Part shown: one piece after another, positions 5,407 to 28,385 of the stretch
Layout of the letters: every line of letters begins with the position of its first letter
How positions within the stretch are numbered: the stretch's first letter is position 1
Virus record (IMG/VR): IMGVR_UViG_3300023440_000018
Location: 1-28,385 of that record
DNA from: a virus
Reading direction: 5' to 3' (one strand)
Length of the DNA: 28,385 bases
Notes under the pieces: model-generated
Databases searched by the model: none
The model's input: only the letters and a program-made list of their open reading frames with translations
What the model was told of the DNA's origin: nothing
Translations under genes and position numbers: made by a program

Positions 5407-6755
5407 TGTTCAATCCCCTTAGGAATGTAGCCGTAGCGGTTCTTAAACATCTGAAGGAGCTCAGGACGCTGTTTATAATTGGCCCTAAGATACTCTTCAG
5501 CTTTCATTTGAGCAAGACCCATTTTTCTAGCATGTTCACCCCCTCGTCTAACTGAGTCATAAACACTAGGATCGATATACGGAGATAATTCTTTAGCAAT
5601 TGTACCATCTCCAAATCGTTCACTTAACAAAGCCAAAGCCGCCATATTAGCTTCAAAGTCTGTTTTTTCATTTGTGGCTGCCTGCATGTAAAAATCAAGC
5701 TCTTTTTCACTGTCCATTCCTCGAGCTTTCATATCTGTAGCTCGACGAATTTCTTGCAAAAGAAGAGGCTTTATACTGCGAATGGTGTCACGGGCTTTCT
5801 GCTCATTTGTACCTAACCATCGACTAACACCTTGGCCAACAGTAGAGGTTTTTATAGCCGCCCAAATATTTTCAAGCGTGCCATTTTTAGCATTAATCAT
5901 GCCTTTAACATTGTTTAAGTCGGTATATAATTTAGCGAGTTTAGCTAAGTAGCCTTCAACGGCTTGTTTTGCTTGGGCTTTCTTTTCCTCAGGCGTAAGT
6001 TCACCTTTAGCATGAATAAGTTGTTTAGCTGTGGCAATTTCAGCCAAGCGCTTACCCATCTCAGTGGCCCGGGAAAGCTTTCCAGCAAACTCAAGGTCTA
6101 CCTGTTTCTCAGCAAGACGATTTCTGCGTTTTTCTTCAGCTTGGGCACGCTTAAATTGAAGACGCGCTTCATTACGCATCTTAGCTAAATCGGCCTCAGT
6201 GGCATTAGGATGTTCATCAAGATAAACTGTTTCAGCGTCTTTAACGAAGTCATCAATATCAGTAGGAGTCGGTTTAGGAGCACCATCCCCACTCCCGAAA
6301 ATTGTATTCCAATAGGTTTTCAGCGCATCACGGTCATACCGAGCCAACACACCGATAGCTTCACGTTGAATAATGCCAGGATATTGCTCTTCAAGAGCGA
6401 GAAGCCGCTTTGAATCTGAGGCATTGCCTCCGCGGGCCTCAATCTCCCCAATGCGCTCAGTAAGTACATCTTTGGGTGACTTTTTACCTGTGATAATATC
6501 CCAAGCCTGTTTAACATCTTCTTCACGCTTAAGAACGTCAGTAGTCGCTTTAGCTTTAGAATAGGCTTCGGCCATGTCGGGGTTTTCCAAGAAAAACTTA
6601 CCTACTTCTTCCGGTGAGCCTTCAGTGTATAAGCGCTTCAATTCTTCTTCTTTTTGCTGCTTTTCCTTTTCAGCAAAATACTCACGCTGACCTTGAAAAG
6701 CCATCTGAAGACCGGGAAGTGCGGACGCGGGCTGAACGAAAAACTGATTGGCCAT
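5403..6755 (-). CDS. Virion ejection protein, gp20-like position
   Basis: A 450-aa, mostly helical, Lys/Glu/Ala-rich protein with a strongly charged segment at 30-60 (REYFAEKEKQQKEEELKR) and further coiled-coil-like stretches around 180-260. It lies between a gp7-like and a gp16-like gene, which matches the position of P22 gp20, an internal protein ejected with the DNA. The start at 6755 (MANQFF) is chosen because its ATG overlaps the upstream stop as TAATG and has GGAAAGGGG about 8 bases upstream. An in-frame start at 6782 would add only nine residues and lie deeper in the upstream gene. No enzymatic motif is visible. Confidence 0.6.
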   Translation of the reverse strand: MANQFFVQPASALPGLQMAFQGQREYFAEKEKQQKEEELKRLYTEGSPEEVGKFFLENPDMAEAYSKAKATTDVLKREEDVKQAWDIITGKKSPKDVLTERIGEIEARGGNASDSKRLLALEEQYPGIIQREAIGVLARYDRDALKTYWNTIFGSGDGAPKPTPTDIDDFVKDAETVYLDEHPNATEADLAKMRNEARLQFKRAQAEEKRRNRLAEKQVDLEFAGKLSRATEMGKRLAEIATAKQLIHAKGELTPEEKKAQAKQAVEGYLAKLAKLYTDLNNVKGMINAKNGTLENIWAAIKTSTVGQGVSRWLGTNEQKARDTIRSIKPLLLQEIRRATDMKARGMDSEKELDFYMQAATNEKTDFEANMAALALLSERFGDGTIAKELSPYIDPSVYDSVRRGGEHARKMGLAQMKAEEYLRANYKQRPELLQMFKNRYGYIPKGIEQ

Positions 6756-7387
6756 TAGAGTAACCCCTTTCCTTTCGCCCAAAGATATTGATTAATTCCA
6801 GTGCCTACAGTATTCATAATCCCTTGTAAACCAGCCTGCTGGGCTTGGGCTGCAGCAATTTGTCCTTGGGCTAGAGTGCTGCCAATATTCCCCATAGTAT
6901 TGGCAATTGCATTTTCATTCGTCCTAACTTGGGCGAGTCCTTGTAACCCTAAAAGCTGTTCCTTATAAGCCGCTAAAAGAGAGTCTTTAGCTAACTGAGA
7001 ATTATATTGAGCTAAAGCTTCTTGGATATTGCCAGATCTTAAGCCTCCAGTTGCGGCCGCGTTTCGAAGAATGGCATCTTCACCCTCTTTACGGGTCTCC
7101 ATAAGTGCTTGATAAAGAGGTGACTGTTTAGCCTGGTTAATAAGGGCCTGTTGGCTGCCTTCACCGCCTTCAAGTCCGTAAAGCCCTCCCAGCTGTTGAA
7201 GAGCTTCTTCTCTAAACTGCTGAGGAACCTTATTGATCTCTTGCAGATACTCGAGCTTTTGTCGCTCAGCATCCGCGGCGGTCTGTGCAGCTTGTTCACT
7301 AGCTTTAGCAGACTTTTTAGACGAAGCGTATGTGGCCCCAGCGCCGATAACTGCCCCACCAACTATTGCTGTTGCGATTCCGGACAT
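6755..7387 (-). CDS. Small virion ejection protein, gp7-like
   Basis: A 210-aa protein opening with a Gly/Ala-rich hydrophobic segment (residues 3-22, IATAIVGGAVIGAGATYASS), then a Gln/Ala-rich helical body. The central part, ILRNAAATGGLRSGNIQEAL (about 110-128), resembles the 'AAATGGLxSG' segment I know from P22 gp7-type DNA-transfer proteins. It is first of the three putative ejection-protein genes and overlaps the upstream cupin-SET gene by 25 bases and the next gene by one base (TAATG). Expected role: packaged in the capsid and released with the DNA on infection. Confidence 0.68.
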   Translation of the reverse strand: MSGIATAIVGGAVIGAGATYASSKKSAKASEQAAQTAADAERQKLEYLQEINKVPQQFREEALQQLGGLYGLEGGEGSQQALINQAKQSPLYQALMETRKEGEDAILRNAAATGGLRSGNIQEALAQYNSQLAKDSLLAAYKEQLLGLQGLAQVRTNENAIANTMGNIGSTLAQGQIAAAQAQQAGLQGIMNTVGTGINQYLWAKGKGLL

Positions 7388-9910: not shown

Positions 9911-11312
9911 AGGTTATAAAGCCTCGAGCAAAAGCGACACGAGCATCAGAGATGCCTCGAAACTTGAAACCCACCCAGTTATTCACATAACCGAGTCTGC
10001 GTAGAATAAAACGCTTATTATACTCATTCGGTGCTCCATATGAAGCCCAAAATTCTTTACTATAGGTTCTACCATCCTTAGTCATAGAAAATGCAACTGT
10101 GACTTCACCATCGCTTGTATAGTCACCAGAAATAGTTTCAAGTTCCAGCTCATTTATAGAAGCTGTCTCTAAAGCAAGAAACGGAGAGTACAAAATCCAT
10201 TCAACTTTATTTCCGTACTGTGTGGCTTTAGAGAGGTCAAGTTTTCCAATATTGGTGTTCTGTTTATCCCCAACAATAAAAGCAGAAAACCGGGGATCGT
10301 AAACACCATTAATAGCCCGATAAGGAGTATTCCCCTGAATATCAGATTTAAGCTTAAACCAAGCTACTTCAGGTGAATATTTAACTGCAATATCTGGACG
10401 AAAGCAAAGAACCTCATTTGGTAGATGAATAATTACAAGAGAAGAATTCTCAAATTCCCAAGTCTCCATGCGGACGTTCTTAAAATCTGCATCGGAGTAC
10501 TGTGCAAGAAGCTTATCAATTTCCCTAGTTGAGATTTTTTGAGTCTGTCCAGCACTCAGTACGTGCACTCCAAGAGTTTCATTCTTTCGGCTACCAATAA
10601 AATACCAATGCCCGTGAACCTCACATTTACAAAGAGAAGAAATAATACCAATTTTAAGCCCTCTAGAATTGACACGCTGAAAGGCAAAATTATCTGCCGC
10701 AACGTCAATAAAATACTCAATAGAATATCGACCAAAAACAACTATTTTATTATCTTGAGTTTTAACCACCGCTAAAGATGGATCCGGCATAAACTCGGCA
10801 GTGGCAAATTTCAGAGGGTCAATACTACTTTCATCTGTTAAATCAGTATGATAAATATATTCTCCGTCTGTGAGAAAATAATACCCATCAATCCAAGTAG
10901 CGTCATACGGAGAACCTAGATCCGGGTCTGTGACTTGTCTGAAACCGTTGGTCCGGTCATAAAGATACATGTTGCCTTCAGCAATAATACACTGTGTATT
11001 AAAACTGTAAGGCATAACTACTTGATTAGTTCCAGGAATTGTTCCTAACTTAGTAACAGACCCATCAGACAAAACCTCAACAAAATCTGTACCAGTAACG
11101 CGGAATTGTGTAGACAACCGTTCGTTATAAACAGCACCCCTGTCGGTACCATACCCCGTAGCCACCTGGGTTAACCCAGGGAACGAAATATAGTAGCCTG
11201 GAGTGTCGAGAATATTATGCAAAATAGGCATCATATTCTCAGGGAGATTATCACGGTAGTCAACATTCTCCACCGCGTCTCCTTTTAATAAACTAAATGG
11301 CTGTCTAGGCAT
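9903..11312 (-). CDS. Tail hub / packaged-DNA stabilisation protein, P22 gp10-like
   Basis: A 469-aa protein, close to P22 gp10 in length and recognisably similar along it: the start MPRQPFSLLKGDAVENVDYRDNLPENMMP, the FPGL segment, RGAVYNERLSTQFRV, FGRYSIEYF, SLVIIHLPNEVLC, and the end WVGFKFRGISDARVAF. In P22, gp10 forms the hexameric hub that binds the gp4 ring below the portal, closes the filled head, and carries the tailspikes and needle. This fits the P22-type head-binding domains of the two tail proteins here. The start at 11312 has GAGGTGG with good spacing; a start at 11345 would add 11 residues and extend further into the upstream gene. Confidence 0.88.
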   Translation of the reverse strand: MPRQPFSLLKGDAVENVDYRDNLPENMMPILHNILDTPGYYISFPGLTQVATGYGTDRGAVYNERLSTQFRVTGTDFVEVLSDGSVTKLGTIPGTNQVVMPYSFNTQCIIAEGNMYLYDRTNGFRQVTDPDLGSPYDATWIDGYYFLTDGEYIYHTDLTDESSIDPLKFATAEFMPDPSLAVVKTQDNKIVVFGRYSIEYFIDVAADNFAFQRVNSRGLKIGIISSLCKCEVHGHWYFIGSRKNETLGVHVLSAGQTQKISTREIDKLLAQYSDADFKNVRMETWEFENSSLVIIHLPNEVLCFRPDIAVKYSPEVAWFKLKSDIQGNTPYRAINGVYDPRFSAFIVGDKQNTNIGKLDLSKATQYGNKVEWILYSPFLALETASINELELETISGDYTSDGEVTVAFSMTKDGRTYSKEFWASYGAPNEYNKRFILRRLGYVNNWVGFKFRGISDARVAFARGFITYD

Positions 11313-19022: not shown

Positions 19023-19542
19023 TTGCAACTGACGCGGGCAACTGCTTATTTAAATTATTGATGGCGTGTTTAGCCTCAACAATCTCAATAGTCCAATCAA
19101 AGTCCTCATCGGAATACTCATCATGCTGCACAGAAGCATTGATGATCTTCCGGTCTGTGAGTGCAGAAACGGTTTGAGCTAAAGCACGTAACGCATTAGG
19201 CGTTTTAGGATCTGCCGGGTCCAATTCGCCCAAGGTAGCTTTAAGCTTACTGATAAGCTCGCCCTCGATCTTGTTAAGCTCGGGAAAGAGCGCCATATCT
19301 CTGTACAGCGCGGCCAGAGTGAGCTTAGACTTATGGAGCTGGATTACATCTTTGAGGTGCTTCTTGAGATTTTCGGGGGAGGGAGGTTCCTGAGACCAGC
19401 CTTCTTCCTCAGCAACCTGCTTAAGGCTTTCATAGGGAATATCATGCATGTACGCAATTTTGCGTAATGAATCACCCATCACCTCATATTGGATGCGGTA
19501 GGTGTCCCAGTCTACAACTGTAGCCATCCAATCTTGACTCAT
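19015..19542 (-). CDS. terS: Terminase small subunit (probable)
   Basis: A 175-aa protein directly upstream of and overlapping the large subunit gene, first in the late operon. The N-terminal 50 residues (YRIQYEVMGDSLRKIAYMHDIPYESLKQVAEEEGW) read as a helix-turn-helix: 'S(L)RKIAxxxxIPYxSLKQxAxxxGW'. The middle is helical, suited to ring oligomerisation, and the C-terminus is acidic then basic. It should bind the packaging start site and hand DNA to the large subunit. The start ATG 19542 is preferred because GGAG lies 7 bases upstream; the ATG at 19548 has GGAG only one base away. Confidence 0.8.
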   Translation of the reverse strand: MSQDWMATVVDWDTYRIQYEVMGDSLRKIAYMHDIPYESLKQVAEEEGWSQEPPSPENLKKHLKDVIQLHKSKLTLAALYRDMALFPELNKIEGELISKLKATLGELDPADPKTPNALRALAQTVSALTDRKIINASVQHDEYSDEDFDWTIEIVEAKHAINNLNKQLPASVANA

Positions 19543-19576
19543 TACCATGCTCCGGGATACTGAAAACCTTATAACA

Positions 19577-19625
19577 TATATAGCGAAATAAGAGCACTTT
19601 GTAAAGTAAAAAATGATTAGAATTT
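19577..19625 (-). promoter_or_regulatory. Late promoter with upstream box
   Basis: On the leftward strand: -35 TTTACA (19600-19605), 17-bp spacer, -10 TATATA (19577-19582), about 35 bases before the small terminase start. A 13-bp upstream box (AAATTCTAATCAT, 19613-19625) ends exactly 30 bp before the -10. The extended sequence TAAGAAATTCTAATC (19615-19629) recurs in the nearby 61-bp repeats. Confidence 0.7.
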
Positions 19626-19672
19626 CTTAGTTTATGTAAGTACTTGATTTTATTACGCTTTTCGAGAGTGCT

Positions 19673-19749
19673 CTTCATATAAAGGCTTCATATGGGACAA
19701 GTGTTAGGATAAAGGTTAGTCGAAAATCTAGTTCATATGAGCTTCATAT
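19673..19749. promoter_or_regulatory. Cluster of CTTCATAT motifs (operator candidates)
   Basis: CTTCATAT occurs at 19673-19680, 19686-19693 and 19742-19749, with TTCATATGA at 19732-19740. Inverted copies (ATATGAAG) lie at 21612-21619 and 21814-21821, upstream of the primase promoter. TTCATATGAA (21811-21820) is a perfect 10-bp palindrome. They look like binding sites shared by the late and early control regions; the protein is unknown. Confidence 0.4.
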
Positions 19750-19815
19750 AGACTCGATAGAAGGGTATCAACACAGTTATTTTAGTTATTTTCTTCGAGT
19801 TTATCAGGTTTGGAG

Positions 19816-20046
19816 TATTATTAAGAAATTCTAATCAAGAATCGTGAAACAGGGTGGGCGAGAACAACTGCAGAGGTATTATTAAGAAATTCTAATCGAG
19901 AATCGTGAAACAGGGTGGGCGAGAACAGCTGCAAGAGTTAAATTAAGAATTTCTAATCGAGAATCGTGAAACAGGGTAGGCGAGAACAACTGCAGAGGTA
20001 TTATTAAGAAATTCTAATCGAGAATCGTGAAACAGGGTAGGCGAGA
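19816..20046. repeat. Four 61-bp tandem direct repeats
   Basis: Units start at 19816, 19877, 19938 and 19999, each exactly 61 bp apart and nearly identical; the fourth diverges after 20046. Each holds TAAGAAATTCTAATC (one change in unit three) at 19822, 19883, 19944 and 20005, then ATCGTGAAACAGGGT and, in the first three units, a CTGC-containing tail. The period is close to six helical turns, so the sites would face nearly the same side of the DNA. The shared motif is also the upstream box of the late promoter. An array for a regulator or a replication initiator (iterons) is likely. The repeats are contiguous, without unique spacers, so this is not CRISPR. Confidence 0.85.
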
Positions 20047-20111
20047 GACTGGGACCCGGTTCTTGTCTTTGTTTATCTGTTATTGTCCCCCTGGCCGGGC
20101 CCAGAGTCTAA

Positions 20112-20279
20112 GGTTCCCTGTTGCCGAGCAACGCGAGTGCCACTGTACCAGAGCGGAGCGGACCAACGGTTCCTTGTTGCCGAGCAACGCGAGTGCCACT
20201 TTACAAGATCCTAATGTGACGTAATTGCCGAGCAACGCGAGGCTATTTATTGCGGAGCGGAGCAACGCGGAGCGGAGCG
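20112..20279. repeat. GC-rich hairpin repeat cluster
   Basis: A 33-bp sequence starting GGTTCCCTGTTGCCGAGCAA occurs at 20112-20144 and 20168-20200 (one mismatch), with a shortened third copy TTGCCGAGCAACGCGAG at 20225-20241. Each full copy contains the small hairpin GTTGC-CGA-GCAAC. It ends with CGGAGCGGAGC repeated at 20253 and 20268; a related copy lies near 20152. The block is far richer in G+C than the AT-rich DNA on both sides, which suggests an inserted or mobile short repeat, or a structured RNA/origin element. No gene is visible in it. Confidence 0.7.
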
Positions 20280-20339
20280 AAAGGTGATATGAGGATATAT
20301 GAATATTTATATAATAGAAGTTTGTAGGAGTTAATGAAA

Positions 20340-20388
20340 GAAAAATAATATTTTTTAGGGTTGTTTTTATTTAAAAAGTGGGTATAAT
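20340..20388 (+). promoter_or_regulatory. Promoter of the winged-helix gene with upstream box
   Basis: -10 TATAAT at 20383-20388; -35 candidates are GTTGTT (17-bp spacer) or TTGTTT (20361-20366, 16-bp spacer). The box GAAAAATAATATT (20340-20352) ends exactly 30 bp before the -10 and is identical to boxes at the next two rightward promoters. Confidence 0.68.
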
Positions 20389-20426
20389 GTTTATAAATCA
20401 AGGGCGCAACAGAGGAGAATTGAAAG

Positions 20427-20711
20427 ATGAATTATGAAAAGATGTCAAAGGAAGAGCTGCTTAAACTGATTAAGTCTGGTCATTTTAGTAAAAAGAGGGG
20501 CCGTAAGGAAGAAGTACTTGAGCTGCTGAAAAAGGGTTATGACACAATTGAGGCAATCGCTGAAGAGTTGGGCATTACCTCTAAAAATGTCTCGTCTGTC
20601 CTGACGGCACTCAGGAAAGATGGGCACTTCATCATGAGCTATAAGATTAAAGGCCAGGCTGTGGTTCATCTGGTCGAGGATGAAGAAGAGATTAAGAAAT
20701 TTCTGAAGTAA
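20427..20711 (+). CDS. Small winged-helix DNA-binding protein, candidate phage regulator
   Basis: A 94-aa protein. An N-terminal helix (MNYEKMSKEELLKLIKSG) is followed by a basic patch KKRGRK (22-27). A helix-turn-helix comes next, EEVLELLKKGYDTIEAIAEE then LGITSKNVSSVLTALRKDGH (about 28-67), then a beta wing (FIMSYKIKGQAVVHLVE) and an acidic tail. This is the pattern of a winged-helix repressor or activator; I cannot name the family. AGGAGAA lies 8 bases before the start. The gene stands alone between its own promoter and a strong terminator, inside the region full of repeats, which suits a regulator acting on nearby sites and perhaps on its own promoter. Confidence 0.78.
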   Translation: MNYEKMSKEELLKLIKSGHFSKKRGRKEEVLELLKKGYDTIEAIAEELGITSKNVSSVLTALRKDGHFIMSYKIKGQAVVHLVEDEEEIKKFLK

Positions 20712-20717
20712 AGAGTG

Positions 20718-20754
20718 AAAGCCACCTAACTAAAGCGCCCGGTTAGGTGGCTTT
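20718..20754 (+). terminator. Intrinsic terminator after the winged-helix gene
   Basis: A perfect 13-bp inverted repeat (AAAGCCACCTAAC / GTTAGGTGGCTTT) with an 11-base loop begins 7 bases after the stop codon and is followed by AATTTG. The A/T ends of the stem supply a short U-run in either direction. Confidence 0.78.
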
Positions 20755-20757
20755 AAT

Positions 20758-21159
20758 TTGATGATAGTATCGCAAAATTTATATACATGAAATATTAAAA
20801 TTAAATTTATTCCCATTTAAATAATTTAATTAATCCCCCATAATTAAACCCAGCTAGTCAAAAAATACACCAATATACGAAATAATAAATATTCAGATAT
20901 CTGCATGCCTCTTAACCCTATAATTAAGCGGCGCCGATTGATGATAGTTTAAGCCGACCGGGTGATTTTGGCTCAGCAAGTCAGCCTCCACTCAGCCAAC
21001 CAGATTCTTCCAGCCACAAACTCTCCATGGCCTCCGTCTCACGGAAACAACTCGTCACCACAACAATCCTTCGGCCGCTCAAGAGTGTCTCAGATATACA
21101 ATGCTCTTTTGCCCTTTAAAAATAGAGTGAGTGATTGATGATAGTTTAAGCTGACCGGG
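20758..21159. repeat. TTGATGATAGT direct repeats, two within 27-bp copies
   Basis: A 27-bp sequence (GATTGATGATAGTTTAAGCC then GACCGGG) occurs at 20936-20962 and, with one mismatch, at 21133-21159. Its core TTGATGATAGT also occurs at 20758-20768. An inverted GATGATAGTT lies at 24898-24907 just behind the primase operon. The 20936-21330 stretch is richer in G+C than its flanks and I find no convincing reading frame in it; a non-coding RNA or origin element is possible. Confidence 0.6.
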
Positions 21160-21254
21160 CCGTCCGACCAAAAGAAGTCAACCTTCATCGCCGTCTCAAT
21201 TGGGCACGCTGAAGCTGCGTTGCCGAGCTACTCAGGCTCAGCGAAGCGGCGCCA

Positions 21255-21275
21255 CTCAGTAACACAAATACTGAG
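21255..21275. other. Inverted repeat, CTCAGTA hairpin
   Basis: CTCAGTA and TACTGAG form a perfect 7-bp stem with a 7-base loop. It lies in the gene-free stretch 20712-21947. No U-tract follows, so a terminator is unlikely. Confidence 0.45.
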
Positions 21276-21493
21276 GATAAGCGTTATTAGTGAGTCAGTG
21301 AGCCGGCTTTTCGACCAAATAATTGGTGCTCAACTTACCAACTTTGGATATGGTGTATACAGTTAATATTAAAATAGACTTACATTATATAAAAAGTATA
21401 ATAAAATCAGGTATTTATTAGTTTATACAGTGTATTAGTGAATAGTGTATTTATGAATAGAGCATTATGGAATATTAGGGCTCCTAAATCTTT

Positions 21494-21533
21494 GATTGGG
21501 GGTGTCATATATGGTACTCTAATACCCCCAATC
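21494..21533. other. Perfect 10-bp inverted repeat with 20-base loop
   Basis: GATTGGGGGT and ACCCCCAATC are exact reverse complements, separated by 20 bases, in very AT-rich DNA. The G/C-tract arms stand out sharply. Neither side is followed by a proper U-tract. It could be a protein site or a structured RNA. Confidence 0.55.
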
Positions 21534-21583
21534 CCGATATAGAAAATAAATAATAAAAAAATAAATATAAAATAGGTAGAGAA

Positions 21584-21699
21584 AAAACTCACTATTACAC
21601 TATTCGAGCTCATATGAAGAGCTAAGTGCTTGATTTTATTACATTTTTCTTTTAGTGAAAAGTCCTATATTTTTTCACTAAAACTCACTATTACACTAT
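21584..21699. repeat. 20-bp direct repeat flanking a 12-bp inverted repeat
   Basis: AAAACTCACTATTACACTAT occurs exactly at 21584-21603 and 21680-21699, 96 bp apart. Between them, overlapping the second copy, is a perfect 12-bp inverted repeat TTTTAGTGAAAA / TTTTCACTAAAA (21650-21661 and 21672-21683) with a 10-base spacer. They lie about 200-300 bp upstream of the primase promoter in otherwise gene-free AT-rich DNA. Confidence 0.7.
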
Positions 21700-21858
21700 A
21701 ACTGATTAAAATTTAATTAGAAAATAAGGCTCATATTCTATATGAAATAATTTCTACCTTAAGCGGTGTTCAAGTTTTTTCATCGTTCATTTTAAATTTT
21801 TTCTAATCAATTCATATGAAGTCTCCACTTATACCGCATATCTCATTTTCTTATTAAG

Positions 21859-21907
21859 GAAAAATAATATTAGAATCATGTACTTTTGTCATTTAATAAT
21901 ATATAAT
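21859..21907 (+). promoter_or_regulatory. Primase-operon promoter with upstream box
   Basis: -10 TATAAT (21902-21907), 17-bp spacer, -35-like TGTACT (21879-21884), and box GAAAAATAATATT (21859-21871) ending exactly 30 bp before the -10. The box is identical to those of the winged-helix and small-gene promoters. It drives the primase gene at 21960. Confidence 0.72.
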
Positions 21908-21949
21908 AACATTCAACAATGAGATTATTCCTCTATTTCATTCACACAT

Positions 21950-21954
21950 GGAGG
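21950..21954 (+). promoter_or_regulatory. Ribosome site deciding the primase start
   Basis: GGAGG sits 5 bases before ATG 21960. An in-frame ATG at 21948 overlaps this site (ATGGAGG-5-ATG) and has no site of its own, so the later ATG is preferred. The next gene shows the same arrangement. Confidence 0.7.
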
Positions 21955-21959
21955 CTTCT

Positions 21960-24494
21960 ATGTCGAACCAGAACCCACCTAGCACCAACACCAACACAAC
22001 CTCTGCTCAAGATCCTCTGTATCATCTTAAACAAGCTCCCACTTGGTCGCCAAGCCGCACCATAAAAGGGAAACAGAAAGCCCCTCATCATAAGATAGAC
22101 GAACCAGACACCTTTCAAACCTTTGAAGCAGCTAAAGCTCTTCAGCCACTTTTGGTCGATAAAGGCCACGAGTCTCTTTTCTTGGGCGTCATGGCACAAG
22201 CTAATGACCCTTATATTTACATTGATATTGACATTGACCCATCAGGTAATGACCCTAAGAAGCACACCTCCATTTCACCTGAGGTCTTGTCTCTGCTAGA
22301 GCAGTTTCCGACTTACACAGAGATATCACCATCAGGTAACGGTCTCCACATAATTTATAAACTCTCAGCCCGAGACGCTGCGACGCTAAGGACACTCGGC
22401 TTTACTAAGATGTCCTCGACAAGCACAAAAGCGCCTTATACAGGTGAGCTGATTTTTAGCGGCGCTTATCTCATCATCACTGAACGGCCATACTTTACAC
22501 CTCAACACCCTATTGCTCAGGTGGGTATGGATGTTATATTTCAGTACATGCCAAAGTTAAAGCAGCGGCTTGTGCAGAATATAACTCCTAAGTCCAATCA
22601 GCCAAATCAGTCGGCTAACAAGAAGCAGGAGTCGAAAGTCATTGGAATGCGATCTCGGCAACCACTTAACGGTGAGCCATTGTTCGAGGACATTCAGAGA
22701 CAGCTGCTCAGACTCCCGACTCGCTTAGACTTTTATGTCACAAAAGCTTATGCGCAGCTCGAGACTCCATTGCATCCTAACAACTATGACCACTGGGTAA
22801 ACGTCTGCATGTGTCTGGCGCATGCTGCATTATCTCAATCATTCACTGATGTCGCGATTCATAATCTCTACTACGAGCTCTTTGATTTTTGGTCGTCAAG
22901 GGACACTGAGGCTTATAAAGGGCCTGACGACACTTGGGACAAATGGGAATCGGTTCTGCGCTCGACCAAAGAGAAGATGGAGCAGAATGACAACTACAAG
23001 CCGGCGCTTACCAAGTCCACACTCTTCCGCCTAGTGAATCTCTGTTACCCTAAGTATCCTGTTCGCGACCATCAGAAGAACGAAGTGCTATGGGAGTCAC
23101 ACCATAACTTGCAAGCAGTCATTGACTTTCACCAGCTCATCTTCAAGGCTGATGTTTATGACTTTTCAACCTTGTATGTCGAGTGTCATAAAGACGTAGA
23201 GCGCCGACTTTTCAATGGGCGATTCCAGATTGAACAGTCAGAAAAGCCAGATCATGTCCTAGTGTTTCTTAAGACGCCTGAGCTAGCTTTTCGCATTATC
23301 TTAGAGGAATCCTATTACAAGGTGCCGGCGATTCAGCGGTGCTTAGCACCATTTAAGCAGCTCGCTGTGCAGAACATCAACATTGACTTAAATATTAATA
23401 TCCACGATCGCTTTAAAGCTTGGGTAGAATCGAAGCCTTGGGACGGCACGCCTAGAGTCGACCAAGTAATCTCGACACTTGAGTTTGATCCTCACGAAGA
23501 CCCGACATGGCTAGAGCACTATAAAAAGGGACTACGAAAATGCCTGCTATGGCTTGTTGGCTCGAGGTATCTCGGGAAGCCTTCATCTCCTCCTTGTGTT
23601 CCTATTTTGGTCGGTACTGAGGGCATTTATAAGTCCACGTGGGTTAAGTCGCTTTTACATGACACACCTTTTGCCCTTCAGTACGTTAGAACAGTTTCTG
23701 GTCTCTTGAATGACCGTCGCGAGTTATCTAGGGCTCTTCAGGGCACCTTAATCGCTCTTATAGATGAGATTGAAACATCGCTGACAAACGCTGACAAAGC
23801 AAAAGACATCCTCTCAGAAGAGACTTTGAATATACGAGCACACTATGAGAACAGCTACGTGAATATTCCGAAGCTTGGGCTCATTTTCGGCACAACCAAT
23901 AACCCATATATGACAGCGTCTGATGATGGCAACCGACGGTACCTTCGTATAAGGGTACTCAACTGTGACACGGATGCACTTTGGAAGATTGACATGCAAC
24001 AAGTATATGCTGAGCTCCTCGTGGAGTATAAAGAGCATGTGAAGAAAGGGAACAAAATGCCTTGGGTCTTTACCAAGGAAGAAAACCGAATGAATAATAT
24101 AATTATGGGCTATGCTGCGGCTAAGTCTGAAGAAGCTCATCTCCTGGAAGAATATTTTGGTGGACCACCTGAGTCCTTTGAATTTAATGAGTCGCTTTAC
24201 ATAGGACCTCGAGGAGGATTTAAACAGAACCATGTGCTTCTGAAGGAGGGCCTAGCCACCACAGTGTCTAAGATGGCGAATGACCTCTTCTGCTTTATTC
24301 AGTCTCAGAACTTCAACGCTCCTGTGAAGCATATAAAGCGTCCAGTATTAAAACGCAAGCTTCAAGCATTCGCGGCTAAATACACTCAGACTGAGCATAA
24401 GTCACGGACACTTGGTAATATTACCTGTCTTAACGGAATGGTCTTTGTTAAACATCAAACCCTGTTTCTCGTGCCTCGCCGGCGTGAGGACTGA
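21960..24494 (+). CDS. Primase-polymerase / VirE-type superfamily 3 helicase
   Basis: An 844-aa replication protein. The N-terminal archaeo-eukaryotic-type primase has acidic catalytic motif YIDIDIDPS (about 87-95), SPSGNGLHIIY (123-133) and GELIFSGAYLIIT (162-174). A PriCT-2-like linker follows (WVNVCMCLAHA ... FWSSRDTEAY ... DTWDKWESV, about 280-335). The C-terminal VirE/D5-like helicase begins with WDGTPR (494-499), then Walker A-like GTEGIYKST (552-560), Walker B LIALIDEIE (597-605) and FGTTNNPYMTASDDGNRRYL (about 643-662). It should prime and unwind DNA at the phage origin. The Walker A has Tyr where the loop normally has Gly before Lys. The last ~110 residues resemble the protein encoded next door. 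Confidence 0.9.
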   Translation: MSNQNPPSTNTNTTSAQDPLYHLKQAPTWSPSRTIKGKQKAPHHKIDEPDTFQTFEAAKALQPLLVDKGHESLFLGVMAQANDPYIYIDIDIDPSGNDPKKHTSISPEVLSLLEQFPTYTEISPSGNGLHIIYKLSARDAATLRTLGFTKMSSTSTKAPYTGELIFSGAYLIITERPYFTPQHPIAQVGMDVIFQYMPKLKQRLVQNITPKSNQPNQSANKKQESKVIGMRSRQPLNGEPLFEDIQRQLLRLPTRLDFYVTKAYAQLETPLHPNNYDHWVNVCMCLAHAALSQSFTDVAIHNLYYELFDFWSSRDTEAYKGPDDTWDKWESVLRSTKEKMEQNDNYKPALTKSTLFRLVNLCYPKYPVRDHQKNEVLWESHHNLQAVIDFHQLIFKADVYDFSTLYVECHKDVERRLFNGRFQIEQSEKPDHVLVFLKTPELAFRIILEESYYKVPAIQRCLAPFKQLAVQNINIDLNINIHDRFKAWVESKPWDGTPRVDQVISTLEFDPHEDPTWLEHYKKGLRKCLLWLVGSRYLGKPSSPPCVPILVGTEGIYKSTWVKSLLHDTPFALQYVRTVSGLLNDRRELSRALQGTLIALIDEIETSLTNADKAKDILSEETLNIRAHYENSYVNIPKLGLIFGTTNNPYMTASDDGNRRYLRIRVLNCDTDALWKIDMQQVYAELLVEYKEHVKKGNKMPWVFTKEENRMNNIIMGYAAAKSEEAHLLEEYFGGPPESFEFNESLYIGPRGGFKQNHVLLKEGLATTVSKMANDLFCFIQSQNFNAPVKHIKRPVLKRKLQAFAAKYTQTEHKSRTLGNITCLNGMVFVKHQTLFLVPRRRED

Positions 24495-24495
24495 T

Positions 24496-24500
24496 GGAGG
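24496..24500 (+). promoter_or_regulatory. Ribosome site deciding the start of the 128-aa gene
   Basis: GGAGG lies 5 bases before ATG 24506. The in-frame ATG at 24494 overlaps it and overlaps the primase stop (TGATG). The arrangement ATGGAGG-5-ATG copies that at the primase start. Confidence 0.6.
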
Positions 24501-24505
24501 ACAAT

Positions 24506-24892
24506 ATGACTGAAGCTAAACAAGTTCTTTACGAGTATCTCGGCAGCCCTGATGAATATACCTTTCGACCAGAAGATTACATGGGTCCTTATGGCGGAGT
24601 AATTAATGCTCTAGGTCTTAAGTATCGAGGCTTGATCATCTCTGGGCGAGAAATGTATAATCGTGTCACTGAATATTCTGGGCGGAAGGTAGATCGTGTA
24701 GAGTTTATGCAAGCTCTCAAAGAGTGGGCTATGGAGTATATTGGAAGTGAAGTTTACCAAATAGGGAAACGCTTCATAGAGCAAGGGCGTCTGCGTCATG
24801 GATGCTCGCGGTACTTCTGTATACCTATTCGCGAAGCTGAAGACAGGCTTATGAAACAAGAAGGTTTTGATAAAAAAGTTCAGTCTCTGTGA
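24506..24892 (+). CDS. Stand-alone homolog of the helicase C-terminal domain
   Basis: A 128-aa protein, second gene of the primase operon. Its N-terminus, VLYEYLGSPDEYTFRPEDYMGPYGG, lines up with LLEEYFGGPPESFEFNESLYIGPRGG near residue 725 of the helicase encoded just upstream. Both continue with a helical segment (SGREMYNRVTEYSGRKVDRVEFMQALKEWA here) and a basic, winged-helix-like end (RLRHGCSRYFCIPI). The likely origin is duplication of that domain. A role as a DNA-binding accessory subunit or competitor of the helicase is inference. If the ATG at 24494 is used the protein gains four residues. A hairpin with a U-tract follows the stop. Confidence 0.72.
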   Translation: MTEAKQVLYEYLGSPDEYTFRPEDYMGPYGGVINALGLKYRGLIISGREMYNRVTEYSGRKVDRVEFMQALKEWAMEYIGSEVYQIGKRFIEQGRLRHGCSRYFCIPIREAEDRLMKQEGFDKKVQSL

Positions 24893-24910
24893 AACGGAAC
24901 TATCATCGCG

Positions 24911-24948
24911 ACCCGGTGGGTAGAAGTTACTTAGTCGGGTTTTTATTT
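24911..24948 (+). terminator. Probable terminator of the primase operon
   Basis: ACCCG (24911-24915) pairs with CGGGT (24936-24940), extendable by a G-T pair, and the right arm runs into TTTTTATTT. The stem is short and the loop long, so strength is uncertain. Confidence 0.5.
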
Positions 24949-24983
24949 CCCGCGTTACAAAATACAGAATAATTTTAATTAGG

Positions 24984-25032
24984 GAAAAATAATATTTTTA
25001 TTATTTACTTTTGTGACGTAAAATGTTATAAT
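24984..25032 (+). promoter_or_regulatory. Promoter of the small-gene operon with upstream box
   Basis: -10 TATAAT (25027-25032), 17-bp spacer, -35-like TTTACT (25004-25009), and box GAAAAATAATATT (24984-24996) ending exactly 30 bp before the -10. TTTTGTGACGT (25009-25019) recurs as TTTTGTGACAT at 25074-25084 in the leader, 65 bp away, a possible operator pair. Confidence 0.72.
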
Positions 25033-25095
25033 AATTGTAGATGATGAAAATAATACTTGTGTAACATTAATAATTTTGTGACATGAGGAACCATA

Positions 25096-25425
25096 ATGAA
25101 ACAGAGAATAATTTATGAAAAAAGTAGTTATCAGCGTGGCAAAGTTATAATGTCGCATTGGACTGAATTTTCACAAGACAAACTGAAGTTTCACTTGAAT
25201 GAACGTATCCGTATTAACGAAAAGAATAAAGCCTGTCTTGATGTTACCATTCTTGTTAAAGAAAATTCTAAATCGGGTCTGTTTATGACTAAGCACGGCC
25301 CCACTTGTCTTACTTGCCTCACTAATGAGCATATCAAAGATATTAAATCTAAAGAATCAAATTGGTTTCAGCAGAAAATCTTAGGTTATAAGTGTGACTG
25401 TTGTGGTTCATACTTAGATGCCTAA
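25096..25425 (+). CDS. Zinc-ribbon-like protein of unknown function
   Basis: A 109-aa protein, first gene of the small-gene operon. The C-terminal half has CLTC (about residues 75-78) and, some 25 residues on, CDCCG (about 99-103), a spacing that suits a zinc ribbon. The N-terminal half is basic and mixed alpha/beta. GAGGAA lies about 6 bases before ATG 25096. No family recognised. Such small early phage proteins often bind host proteins or nucleic acid, but nothing here shows which. Confidence 0.65.
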   Translation: MKQRIIYEKSSYQRGKVIMSHWTEFSQDKLKFHLNERIRINEKNKACLDVTILVKENSKSGLFMTKHGPTCLTCLTNEHIKDIKSKESNWFQQKILGYKCDCCGSYLDA

Positions 25426-25447
25426 CAAACAGAAAAGGAGAATTAAA

Positions 25448-25936
25448 ATGACTTACAAAGAATTTGAAGCCGAACTTAAGTACTTTGATGAACCTTGGAC
25501 CTACAATTCTGAAAAATTGGAAGAAGTTATTAATGCTTGTATCCAGCTCCGTCAGGCGTATTCTTCTAATGGATCCATTGAATGCCCATTTTGCAATATC
25601 TTTTTAAATATTACTGGGTGTGATACTTGCATTTGGACTTTGTTTACACGGAATACATGCTCAGATGAATATGATTATTTTATGGAGAGTGTCATTACGT
25701 ACTCATACGCAATACCTTCTATCAGTGAAGTACGGGCGCACTGTGAACTTCCACAAGAGTATTATAACCACTATTATACTACATTGGATCTAAGTTATGA
25801 AGAGTTTCAAGACCTCATTGAAGAGGTTGAAATAGCACTTGAAAGCTGGATTAAAAAGCGAATCACAGAGCTGGATGAGTGGATTGCTCTTCTGCAAAAG
25901 CATCTTGAAGTAATTAAACAAGAAAAAGGAGAGTAA
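25448..25936 (+). CDS. Cys-rich early protein A, paralog of the next gene
   Basis: A 162-aa acidic protein of unknown function. A Cys cluster lies near residues 45-75: ECPFCN, GCDTCIW, NTCSDEY. Around it are an N-terminal helix (LEEVINACIQLRQAY) and a long C-terminal helix (RITELDEWIALLQKHLEVIK). The next protein repeats the same pattern: CPLC, CDDCVW, NCSEKY and MLETWITVLQEHLEFLK. The four to five cysteines could bind zinc. The start at 25448 is chosen for AAAGGAGAATTAAA directly before it; an upstream in-frame ATG at 25418 lies inside the previous gene with no site. Confidence 0.72.
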   Translation: MTYKEFEAELKYFDEPWTYNSEKLEEVINACIQLRQAYSSNGSIECPFCNIFLNITGCDTCIWTLFTRNTCSDEYDYFMESVITYSYAIPSISEVRAHCELPQEYYNHYYTTLDLSYEEFQDLIEEVEIALESWIKKRITELDEWIALLQKHLEVIKQEKGE

Positions 25937-25938
25937 GA

Positions 25939-26391
25939 ATGACTGAATTGCAAAAACTTGTCAAACAGCACCCTGAATTTAGCGCTCTTTGGGTAAATAA
26001 TCATGAACTTATTGATAAGCATATAAAAGCCTGTCATAAATTGCTTCTTCATTACCGACGAGAAAAGTTTTCTCTTAACTGTCCTTTGTGTGATATTACT
26101 GATACGTGTGACGATTGTGTTTGGCTTCTCATGACCGGTTTGAACTGCTCAGAAAAGTATACTAACTTTGTAGGGGAACTATTTTCAACTAAGCGCCCAA
26201 TAGTGGCTATAGATGAAATTCGTAACTACTTTTCAGAACCTTTTAAAAATAAATTTCTGAAAGACAAAGTTGAAGTTATCCGTGATAAATGGTTTAAGAT
26301 GCGTCAAGCAATGCTTGAGACTTGGATTACAGTTTTGCAAGAACATCTTGAATTCCTTAAAGCACAAACAGAGGAGAATCAAAATGACTAA
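25939..26391 (+). CDS. Cys-rich early protein B, paralog of the previous gene
   Basis: A 150-aa protein, tandem duplicate in pattern of protein A: IKACHKLLLHY, LNCPLCD, TCDDCVWLLMTGLNCSEKY, IDEIR, and a C-terminal helix MLETWITVLQEHLEFLK. The spacing between CPxC and CxxC is a few residues shorter than in A. AAAGGAGAGTAAG precedes the ATG, which begins 2 bases after the stop of A. It ends 8 bases inside the next gene. The shared skeleton implies duplication and divergence; biochemical role unknown. Confidence 0.72.
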   Translation: MTELQKLVKQHPEFSALWVNNHELIDKHIKACHKLLLHYRREKFSLNCPLCDITDTCDDCVWLLMTGLNCSEKYTNFVGELFSTKRPIVAIDEIRNYFSEPFKNKFLKDKVEVIRDKWFKMRQAMLETWITVLQEHLEFLKAQTEENQND

Positions 26392-26599
26392 TTACCGCTT
26401 ACTTGTAACTTTCCATGATGAAACAGGAGAGTGCGTTCATAAAGCTGTTCAATATCATAGTAAAGTTACAAAGCGTTTAGCTCTCAATGTGTGTATGAAG
26501 CGATTTGGTCCTATTCGCCAGAAAATCGGTAATACTTATGTTTTTCTTGAACGAACAGGTCTTCGTGTTAGAGTAACTTTTTATAAAGAAAAGAACTGA
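26384..26599 (+). CDS. Small basic early protein
   Basis: A 71-aa basic protein (MTNYRLLVTFHDETGECVHK ... LRVRVTFYKEKN) predicted to be beta-helix-beta, with two basic strands at the end. GAGGAGAATCAAA precedes ATG 26384. The frame is open further upstream, but that part lies within protein B and lacks a site. It overlaps protein B by 8 bases. No family recognised. Confidence 0.6.
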   Translation: MTNYRLLVTFHDETGECVHKAVQYHSKVTKRLALNVCMKRFGPIRQKIGNTYVFLERTGLRVRVTFYKEKN

Positions 26600-26612
26600 A
26601 AGGAGAATTAAA

Positions 26613-26792
26613 ATGGCTGTGAAAATCACGTATCACTGTGATACCTGTGGAGAAGAGCTGACTTATACCAAACCTCAGTTTGTTCTTCGGTCTTACGGAG
26701 AAAACCGGTTTTACTTTTGCAGTATTAACTGCATGAAAGAGCACATTGAGGAGTTTGGCTACCCCAGCCCCATCGTGAAAGGAGCAAAATAA
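26613..26792 (+). CDS. 59-aa zinc-finger-like protein
   Basis: A frame from ATG 26613 (AAAGGAGAATTAAA before it) to TAA 26790-26792 gives MAVKITYHCDTCGEELTYTK and a second half with FYFCSINCMKEHIEEFGYP. The four cysteines, C9-x2-C12 and C36-x3-C40, form one zinc site. The stop overlaps the next start as TAATG. The pattern CxxCGxEL ... FCxxxC returns in the gene at 27317. Confidence 0.7.
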   Translation: MAVKITYHCDTCGEELTYTKPQFVLRSYGENRFYFCSINCMKEHIEEFGYPSPIVKGAK

Positions 26793-27202
26793 TGCAAGAG
26801 AAACCAATTGTCAAAAAACAGCATATTTGGGCAACTTTGAAAGGCCAAATCATTCTGCAAAAAGCAGATAACTTTCTCAGCGTAACAGACACTGTAAAAC
26901 AACAGACTTTTCAGATTGTTCTTTCAACGTGTGATATAGATGACTTATCTTACATTCTCGATAAGATTCTGGAATCGATTTTGAATATCGATGAACAGTA
27001 CACATATGAACGTGCAGCTACAATGCTTAGCATTATATTGTTCGAAAAGAACTATAATGACTTTATCCTGGCCATGGATATAGTCTTTAGTTATCGTAGC
27101 TCTCATAATAAGAAGTTTCAGGATACGAGGCTTTACCGGCACGCAGAACTTGTTTTGAAGCACTACGCTAAGCACGTGAGAGAGGAGGCTAAAAATGGCT
27201 GA
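26792..27202 (+). CDS. Helical early protein of unknown function
   Basis: A 136-aa protein, mostly helical after a short beta-rich start (HIWATLKGQIILQKADNFLS). It has hydrophobic helices around LSYILDKILESILNI and AATMLSIILFEKNYNDFILAMDIVF, and a basic C-terminus (LKHYAKHVREEAKNG). GAAAGGAG lies about 7 bases upstream. It overlaps neighbours at both ends (TAATG; 8 bases), so it belongs to the same operon. No recognised domain. Confidence 0.62.
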   Translation: MQEKPIVKKQHIWATLKGQIILQKADNFLSVTDTVKQQTFQIVLSTCDIDDLSYILDKILESILNIDEQYTYERAATMLSIILFEKNYNDFILAMDIVFSYRSSHNKKFQDTRLYRHAELVLKHYAKHVREEAKNG

Positions 27203-27317
27203 ACTGTGTTTCTTGAGTCTTTTGGTTCTGATTATCATTCTTGCATATCTTCAAGCAACTGGAGCGCAGGATACTTTGGCGAAGCTTCTTTGGCGTAAGT
27301 TTAAAGGAGGAGACTGA
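27195..27317 (+). CDS. 40-aa single-pass membrane peptide
   Basis: A short frame from ATG 27195 (GAGAGGAGG upstream) to TGA 27315-27317. An N-terminal hydrophobic helix, LCFLSLLVLIIILAYL (about 4-19), is followed by a short basic tail (LAKLLWRKFKGGD). It overlaps the previous gene by 8 bases and the next start as TGATG. The layout suits a small inner-membrane peptide; function unknown. Confidence 0.55.
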   Translation: MAELCFLSLLVLIIILAYLQATGAQDTLAKLLWRKFKGGD

Positions 27318-27490
27318 TGCCTGGAAAACTTTCTACTGGTCAGTGTAAATACTGTGGAGCCGAACTGAACTCTCCTCGCGAGTTTTGTGATTATATCTGT
27401 AAACAGGACTTTTATGATGAATATGCAGACCAGGTGATGCATAGACGCCATGAAGGTGAAATGACTTTTGAGCGTATTAAGCGAAGTTGA
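27317..27490 (+). CDS. 57-aa zinc-finger-like protein
   Basis: MPGKLSTGQCKYCGAELNSP then REFCDYICKQDFYDEYADQ, ending in a basic tail. Cysteines C10-x2-C13 and C24-x3-C28 form a single likely zinc site, with the same CxxCGAEL ... FCxxxC skeleton as the 59-aa protein at 26613 but with a shorter loop. AGGAGGAG lies just before the ATG, which overlaps the upstream stop. Last gene before the next promoter. Confidence 0.66.
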   Translation: MPGKLSTGQCKYCGAELNSPREFCDYICKQDFYDEYADQVMHRRHEGEMTFERIKRS

Positions 27491-27511
27491 GACCACCTGG
27501 ATTTAATTAAG

Positions 27512-27560
27512 GAATTTTAATCATTTTATTGTGTACATTGGTGTTGCGATTTGCTATAAT
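27512..27560 (+). promoter_or_regulatory. Promoter of the membrane-protein/DUF2800 operon
   Basis: -10 TATAAT (27555-27560), 17-bp spacer, -35-like TGTACA (27532-27537). At the same offset as in the other promoters, GAATTTTAATCAT (27512-27524) ends 30 bp before the -10; it matches the late box at 11 of 13 positions. The -10 lies within a large palindrome. Confidence 0.68.
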
Positions 27561-27590
27561 ATATTTACATTATACGCAAGTCGCAACACC
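27540..27590. promoter_or_regulatory. 51-bp palindrome enclosing the -10 (operator candidate)
   Basis: Outer arms GGTGTTGCGA (27540-27549) and TCGCAACACC (27581-27590) are perfect complements. Inside, TTTGC-TATAAT pairs with ATTATA-C-GCAAG apart from one extra base and one G-T pair, leaving an 8-base centre. The symmetry covers the -10 and the expected start point, so a dimeric repressor site is likely. The transcript itself would contain only the right arm. Confidence 0.7.
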
Positions 27591-27615
27591 CTTAAAAATC
27601 AGCAAAAGGACAAAT

Positions 27616-27783
27616 ATGATGGCTGTTATTCTTTCTTATATAGACCCTTCTATTGTTGACTTCCTGTCAAAGCTTTTACTTATCACTATTTTAATGGTGG
27701 CTTTGTGGCTGATTGATACTGCTCCTCTTATTGGTATCTGTTTAGCTATATTTCTTACTTTTCTTTTAGCTTTTATATTTTAA
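27616..27783 (+). CDS. 55-aa membrane protein
   Basis: Starts MMAVILSYIDPSIVDFLSKL with AAAGGA about 6 bases upstream. Two hydrophobic helices (LLLITILMVALWLI and IGICLAIFLTFLLAFIF) are joined by a short polar turn (DTAPL). An in-frame ATG at 27529 lies upstream of the promoter's -10, so it cannot be used by this transcript. First gene of the last operon; function unknown. Confidence 0.6.
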   Translation: MMAVILSYIDPSIVDFLSKLLLITILMVALWLIDTAPLIGICLAIFLTFLLAFIF

Positions 27784-27793
27784 GGAGATAATC

Positions 27794-28385
27794 ATGGCGC
27801 ATGCTAAGTTTAGCCCGTCTAAACTGCATCGTATTCTCAATTGCCCAGCTTCAGGGCAATTTGAAGATTCTAAGCGTCAGTCCTCCTATGCTGAGGAAGG
27901 CGAGATGCTGCATGAGGTTGTTGCAGCTTGTTTAATGCTGCATTTGAGAGAAGGCGCTTGGATTGAGCTCTTGAAAAAGAAGGACCTCACAGTCGACCAA
28001 TTTAATGCCTGTGAAGAATGTATTTTATATGCTTTGGATCTTATGGCGAAATACCCGCCCAAAGATGCTCGCATAGAACATCGTGTCTTTATTGAAGATG
28101 ACTGTGATGGAACTGCAGATTTTATTCTCATTTCTGAGAAACGAATTGATATTGTAGATTGGAAATTTGGCGCAGGTGTCGAGGTCTCAGCAATCGATAA
28201 TCCACAGCTTATGGCTTACGGTGTAGGTGCCATAAAAGAGGCCGGCTGGGAAGAAAACTATCATCGGCTAGTTGGGCTGCATGTTGTACAGCCTAGACTT
28301 AATAACTACAGCACTGATGAACACACTGTCGGCTCTTTGATACGTTGGCACCAACATGAGCTAGCACCTGGGTTGCAGAAAGCCC
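27794..28385 (+). CDS. DUF2800 family, RecB/Cas4-like nuclease-fold protein, C-terminus cut by window edge
   Basis: Open from ATG 27794 (AAGGAG 8 bases upstream) to the right edge; 197 residues visible. Motifs match the phage DUF2800 family: SPSKLHRILNCPAS (7-20), EEGEMLHEV (34-42), GTADFILI (107-114), IDIVDWKFGAGVEV (119-132) and NPQLMAYGVGA (137-147). GTAD plus DWK make a plausible PD-(D/E)xK site with Asp, Asp and Lys, and the downstream QL/Y pair is typical of the RecB/Cas4 branch. The family is usually encoded with phage replication and single-strand annealing genes, so a role in recombination or DNA-end processing is probable but unproven. The cysteines of a Cas4 iron-sulfur cluster cannot be assessed without the C-terminus. 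Confidence 0.87.
   Translation, partial: MAHAKFSPSKLHRILNCPASGQFEDSKRQSSYAEEGEMLHEVVAACLMLHLREGAWIELLKKKDLTVDQFNACEECILYALDLMAKYPPKDARIEHRVFIEDDCDGTADFILISEKRIDIVDWKFGAGVEVSAIDNPQLMAYGVGAIKEAGWEENYHRLVGLHVVQPRLNNYSTDEHTVGSLIRWHQHELAPGLQKA

Follow-up and report, generated by a model that had tools for sequence, protein, structure and literature searches.

Which factor acts at a set of promoters that share one geometry is the question raised by IMG/VR record IMGVR_UViG_3300023440_000018, a 28,385-bp fragment of an uncultivated virus of bacteria that is incomplete at its right end, where an exonuclease gene runs off (the whole stretch is called the window below). A 13-bp box, GAAAAATAATATT, occurs in this record at 20340-20352, 21859-21871 and 24984-24996 and nowhere else, and each copy ends exactly 30 bp ahead of a TATAAT; a second form of the box keeps the same offset at 19613-19625 on the minus strand and at 27512-27524. 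These five boxes, as well as the five -35-like hexamers lying 17 bp ahead of the -10, were found exactly where the initial annotation had placed them. The unit to be explained is larger than the box, being a 16-bp dyad, and we are somewhat inclined to the overall reading that a dimeric regulator, most likely a 94-aa winged-helix protein of the phage itself, activates sigma-70 promoters from this dyad.

The dyad emerges when the window is read side by side with its relatives, all of which are uncultivated. One of them, the contig L004, keeps the whole arrangement (identity over the matched stretches is 76% for TerL, 67% for the portal protein, 55% for the primase and 45% for TerS), and two others, L013 and L015, keep the small terminase gene together with some 225 bp ahead of it. 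The conserved unit is ATTAR-N6-NTAAT, with half-sites 11 bp apart, and the full layout consists of the dyad, N10, a TGTACA-like -35, N17 and the -10. The 13-bp box is only the right-hand part of this dyad, which begins 6 bp farther upstream.

Altogether, 12 dyad promoters were found in the four phages, and the gap between dyad and -10 is 33 bp in 11 of them (32 bp in the L004 promoter at 10453). Dyad positions A1, A4, T13, A14, A15 and T16 are invariant, T2 and T3 are kept in 11 promoters each, and position 5 is G in eight and A in four. Numbering the first T of the -10 as -12 places the dyad at about -61 to -46, with its centre near -53.5. The five promoters of the window (S1 to S5, the only dyad promoters seen in the fragment) combine TATAAT or a near match with a spacing of 17 bp, within the 16-18 bp of sigma-70 promoters, and eight of the 12 promoters have the extended -10 G two bases ahead of the -10. 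A simple promoter scanner detected S3 and S5 and missed S1, S2 and S4. All transcription units inferred for the fragment have a dyad promoter: the late operon, the regulator, the primase, the small genes and the exonuclease.

The two forms of the box had been supposed to separate early from later promoter classes, which did not survive the comparison. The forms differ mainly in the 6-bp spacer and in one half-site letter, the second form is common to the late promoter and to the early-side operon promoter S5 (27506), and the late promoter of L004 carries the form of the early promoters.

Chance occurrence of the composite (dyad, 33 bp, -10) was evaluated against simulated noncoding DNA of the same composition, in which the expected number of composites per noncoding set is 0.018 (window) and 0.004 (L004). 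The noncoding DNA of the window and of L004 contains three each, and L013 and L015 contain one each; a further window composite at 7016, in a coding region, is a chance hit. The matrix scan of the record and its relatives proposed in the initial annotation recovered the promoters as top hits in both directions. With a matrix built from the window's nine dyads, the five promoters of L004 and its array sites (see below) were the highest-scoring of about 21,000 positions, while the single promoter of L013, like that of L015, ranked first in its contig. With a matrix built from the relatives only, S3, S5, S2 and S1 were the best four of the 482 window positions followed by a -10 at the correct gap, while S4 (19631, minus strand), with its weaker -10 (4/6), held only rank 12 of 56,650 by dyad score alone. 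When -10 sites were compared pairwise at every offset, coincidences between A/T-rich stretches dominated, and this comparison is uninformative alone. Elsewhere, the noncoding DNA of the window phage and of L004 shares short patches only, and since it barely aligns, the conservation of the dyad does not simply reflect a recent common descent of whole regions.

The same dyads occur apart from promoters, in a tandem array situated, in the two phages that cover this region (the window and L004), between the promoters of the late and the early genes. The window array has no -10 at +33 of any of its dyads, and each dyad is followed by a block containing GTGAAACAGGG; the array of L004 consists of two dyads with a period of 62 bp, plus another two immediately ahead of the first early promoter. 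Array dyads are more symmetric than those of the promoters (ATTAGG-N4-CCTAAT in L004), with G and C inside their cores. A second block, AG-N4-G-N-GAAA-N2-GGG, is present at a fixed distance in every 61-62-bp unit and is common to both phages. Such composite units, adjoining the small terminase gene, could be mainly a packaging or replication site (a pac site of the small terminase or origin repeats), the promoter boxes being copies with another role or none; the small terminase, with its predicted N-terminal helix-turn-helix (HTH; low-confidence model, predicted local distance difference test, pLDDT, 65), would be a rival binder for the array. However, this explanation, which we regard as highly improbable, leaves it unexplained why every promoter has the dyad at the same exact distance from its -10.

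The array bears also on the proposal that the boxes are nothing but UP elements, i.e., A/T-rich sites for the C-terminal domain of the RNA polymerase alpha subunit (alpha-CTD), their likeness resulting from selection for strong constitutive promoters without any phage protein. The region is indeed A/T-rich, the dyad lies in the zone of about -38 to -59 upstream of the -35 where such elements are placed, and a -35 variant like TTTACT is similar to the GTTTAC found in the early promoters of T4, where an A-rich UP-like stretch lies at -40 to -44 (PMC1524935). In both cases, an A/T-rich stretch precedes the -35 of strong phage promoters used by the host polymerase. However, UP and T4 promoters have no dyad, no fixed 16-bp sequence and no promoter-free array, and the dyad is not a degenerate A/T tract: six half-site positions are invariant, whereas the A/T-rich DNA that joins the dyad to the -35 varies among promoters, and position 5 admits only G or A. 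Neither is the symmetry explained, nor the recurrence in the array of perfect dyads with G/C cores and without a -10. We therefore consider an UP element alone to be distinctly unlikely, and the conserved dyad, the single spacing and the promoter-free array argue for a specific factor over alpha on A/T-rich DNA. That one specific dimeric protein reads the dyad at its fixed place is, on these grounds, likely and well supported.

This protein might be supplied by the host. A host dimeric transcription factor reading the dyad, with all promoters on from the start of infection, would account for the firing of S1 before any phage protein is made, and the consensus sites for integration host factor (IHF) near two of the promoters suggest that host factors are in use. 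Nevertheless, when 2.9 million viral contigs were scanned with the composite pattern, one scan gave seven single hits, in unrelated A/T-rich contigs, and another gave nine hits, comprising the three known relatives and six contigs with one match and none of the phage's proteins, so that only single chance-like hits remain beyond the relatives. The dyad class was not found in AH02, ZP9, 4_4512 and 5P1a either, named phages with related large terminases, and a host regulator appears unlikely in view of this.

The best candidate for the dyad-binding factor, in our opinion somewhat better than an even bet, is the 94-aa winged-helix protein, whose gene lies directly behind a dyad promoter in both the window and L004. 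The two proteins are 47% identical (50% over the matched stretch), and the HTH segment is more conserved than the rest, as expected if the binding site is conserved. The protein gives weak HTH, ArsR, MarR and TrmB matches in Pfam, with scores under the curated cut-offs, and its predicted fold (pLDDT 79) resembles that of the dimeric ArsR/MarR regulators, although no fold match reaches an E value of 0.001. It contains no cysteines; small Cys-containing proteins are encoded at 26613 and 27317. A strong hairpin directly behind the gene is a probable terminator, and L004 has two strong hairpins at the equivalent place (z -6.4 and -8.5); with such hairpins right behind it, the gene is probably transcribed alone.

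Small winged-helix proteins of the ArsR/MarR type are mostly repressors, the perfect palindromes of the array look operator-like, and the regulator's own promoter has a dyad. The dyads may therefore bind a repressor or autoregulator, whose occupancy of array and promoters would lower the genes late in infection. Against this, all promoter dyads stand upstream of the -35 at one distance, the usual place of an activator, while repressor sites normally overlap the -35, the -10 or the start. We hold repression to be decidedly unlikely and consider it probable that the dyad-bound protein is an activator.

Known phage activators offer partial parallels to such a role. The site of the P2 activator Ogr has its centre near -55, close to the -53.5 of the dyad described here, and it is likewise a dyad present at several phage promoters. 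In P2 and P4, the phage-coded activators Ogr and Delta read a short dyad, TGT-N12-ACA, upstream of several sigma-70 promoters (PMC3931495). In contrast, the site here is ATTAR-N6-NTAAT, the candidate is a winged-helix protein and not a zinc finger (CX2CX22CX4C) as Ogr is, and the site occurs at early and late promoters and in an array, whereas the P2 site is found at late promoters only. In phage Mu, a Mor dimer binds a dyad centred at -43.5 of a phage promoter and contacts alpha-CTD and sigma (PMC4287176). The Mor/C system thus resembles ours in placing a dyad upstream of the -10 at promoters read by the host polymerase, but the Mor site overlaps the -35 region, while the dyad here, centred at about -53.5, is followed 10 bp downstream by a separate -35-like hexamer.

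The late promoter may also be compared with that of the Caulobacter gene transfer agent (GTA), where a far-upstream GafY site and an IHF site accompany the sigma-70 promoter of a phage-like structural cluster (PMC11150451), an activator and IHF arrangement comparable to the one proposed here. GafY, however, has its site only on the upstream side of IHF and acts together with the anti-terminator GafZ, whereas here a dyad is present at the promoter as well and the IHF part is a consensus match only.

Several points weigh against activation by a dedicated phage regulator. The early region is covered by a single relative, L004, the L013 and L015 stretches ending before any regulator gene would be reached, and the L004 regulator promoters at 6099 and 6383 are near-duplicates, which are not independent and count as one. 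The left half-site of S1 is the weakest among the five window promoters; moreover, a strict requirement for a phage protein at S1 would leave the first round to basal transcription, to a protein of the virion or to a host factor. A few matrix matches fall outside the promoters and the array, for example at 27859 inside a gene. Finally, the A/T-rich DNA at the dyad probably adds an alpha-CTD contact; the preference of the initial annotation for one specific factor over an UP element alone is nevertheless borne out by the dyad, the fixed spacing and the array.

With these reservations, activation by the winged-helix protein can be pictured as follows. A dimer would occupy the operator-like 16-bp dyad, the half-sites of which are one helical turn apart, and from about -61 to -46 it would touch alpha-CTD and/or sigma region 4 of the host sigma-70 RNA polymerase, raising transcription from promoters with only a moderate, TGTACA-like -35. 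As S1, the regulator's own dyad promoter, would yield a transcript of this one gene, a feedback circuit may be formed: the early promoters, with their good -10s, would fire weakly unaided and then be boosted as the protein accumulates. The array dyads may serve as nearby sites for the same protein, an enhancer or a reservoir, and an IHF bend possibly brings the array to the late promoter. The complete one-factor circuit, in which the winged-helix protein activates all phage promoters (its own and those of the early, replication and late genes) and the IHF-aided array of high-affinity dyads is a sigma-70 enhancer or titration switch timing the late genes, is proposed tentatively and is rather doubtful. 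The lineage has no named member among the phage records searched.

Table 1. Coordinates of the dyad promoters, the array and neighbouring features in the window, with counterparts in related contigs
Feature	Position	Strand	Details
S1, winged-helix gene promoter	20334..20388	+	dyad ATGAA-N6-ATAAT 20334-20349; GTTGTT 20360-20365; TATAAT 20383-20388
S2, primase/helicase operon promoter	21853..21907	+	dyad ATTAA-GGAAAA-ATAAT 21853-21868; TGTACT 21879-21884; TATAAT 21902-21907
S3, promoter of small early genes operon (from 25096)	24978..25032	+	dyad ATTAG-GGAAAA-ATAAT 24978-24993; TTTACT 25004-25009; TATAAT 25027-25032; extended -10 TGTTATAAT
S4, leftward terminase/structural operon promoter	19577..19631	-	dyad ACTAA-GAAATT-CTAAT 19631-19616; TTTACA 19605-19600; TATATA 19582-19577
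S5, DUF2800/exonuclease operon promoter	27506..27560	+	dyad ATTAA-GGAATT-TTAAT 27506-27521; TGTACA 27532-27537; TATAAT 27555-27560; extended -10 TGCTATAAT
Tandem array, 61-bp period, four dyads	19813..20046	+	dyads 19820-19835, 19881-19896, 19942-19957, 20003-20018
94-aa winged-helix protein, putative dyad-binding regulator	20427..20711	+	directly behind dyad promoter
Strong hairpin, probable terminator	20718..20754	+	z -5.5; directly behind winged-helix gene
Small-terminase-like protein, 177 aa	19015..19548	-	first gene behind late promoter; conserved in L004, L013, L015
IHF-consensus site AATCAAGTACTTA (WATCARNNNNTTR)	19637..19649	-	immediately upstream of late-promoter dyad; L004 equivalent 5369 (-)
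IHF-consensus site	21405-21417	+	consensus match upstream of primase promoter
IHF-consensus site AATCAAGCACTTA	21623..21635	-	upstream of primase promoter; L004 has two there (7443, 7507)
Palindrome TCATATGA	19733-19740, 21610-21617, 21812-21819		L004 5394, 5463; L013 45, 115; L015 46, 57, 114
Repeat starting GATGATAGTTT	20760, 20940, 21137, 24907 (-)		L004 6953, 7036

The fragment as a whole comes from a podovirus-like phage with P22-type structural genes directed leftward. This is judged from its terminase, portal and coat proteins, which match those of relatives and of named phages, including one phage whose coat protein is annotated as P22-family. The small-terminase-like protein was identified by its position beside the large terminase. 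The rightward early genes encode the winged-helix protein, a VapE/PriCT-type primase-helicase, small proteins and a DUF2800-type exonuclease. Directly behind the primase gene, a protein of 118-132 aa is conserved (24494-24892 in the window, 10101-10457 in L004), which has no family match in PHROGs or Pfam. Alignments of the primase, winged-helix and small-terminase proteins against viral contigs gave no relatives other than L004, L013 and L015, and the same search in genome contigs gave no match. Among the named phages in the searched collection none is close, with no match by DNA or by the winged-helix or small-terminase protein.

Several other elements accompany the promoters. Most of the IHF-consensus sites follow AATAAA or an A-rich run like it, and these sites suggest a host with IHF and DNA bending at the late and primase promoters. 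Each of the four phages also has 2-3 copies of another palindrome, TCATATGA, often in the form TTCATATGAAG or CTTCATATGAG. The copies lie in noncoding DNA close to the late promoter and, in the window, upstream of the primase promoter too; perhaps they are sites of a second regulator. In both phages, the noncoding DNA that separates the winged-helix gene from the primase contains a repeat starting GATGATAGTTT, which in L004 runs on into CGCCACCTATAAGGCTCAGTCTACCGGTGG and is a possible origin, RNA or protein site; an Rfam search of 19300-28385, these repeats included, gave no match. Between the array and S1, the stretch 20112-20282 is GC-rich and contains three copies of TTGCCGAGCAACGCGAG, and it has the 12-mer TGTTGCCGAGCA in common with L004 near 5875. 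In L004, near-identical dyad promoters (6099-6153 and 6383-6437) flank a 44-aa open reading frame ahead of the winged-helix gene, an arrangement that looks like a duplication of the regulator promoter.

The timing of early and late genes in phages without a polymerase or sigma factor of their own is known for a few models only. The locus described here raises the question of whether a single small regulator is enough to run a whole phage, and the further question of whether an array of sites can act as a sigma-70 enhancer; with the site, its exact geometry, the array and a candidate protein all in hand, these questions become directly testable.

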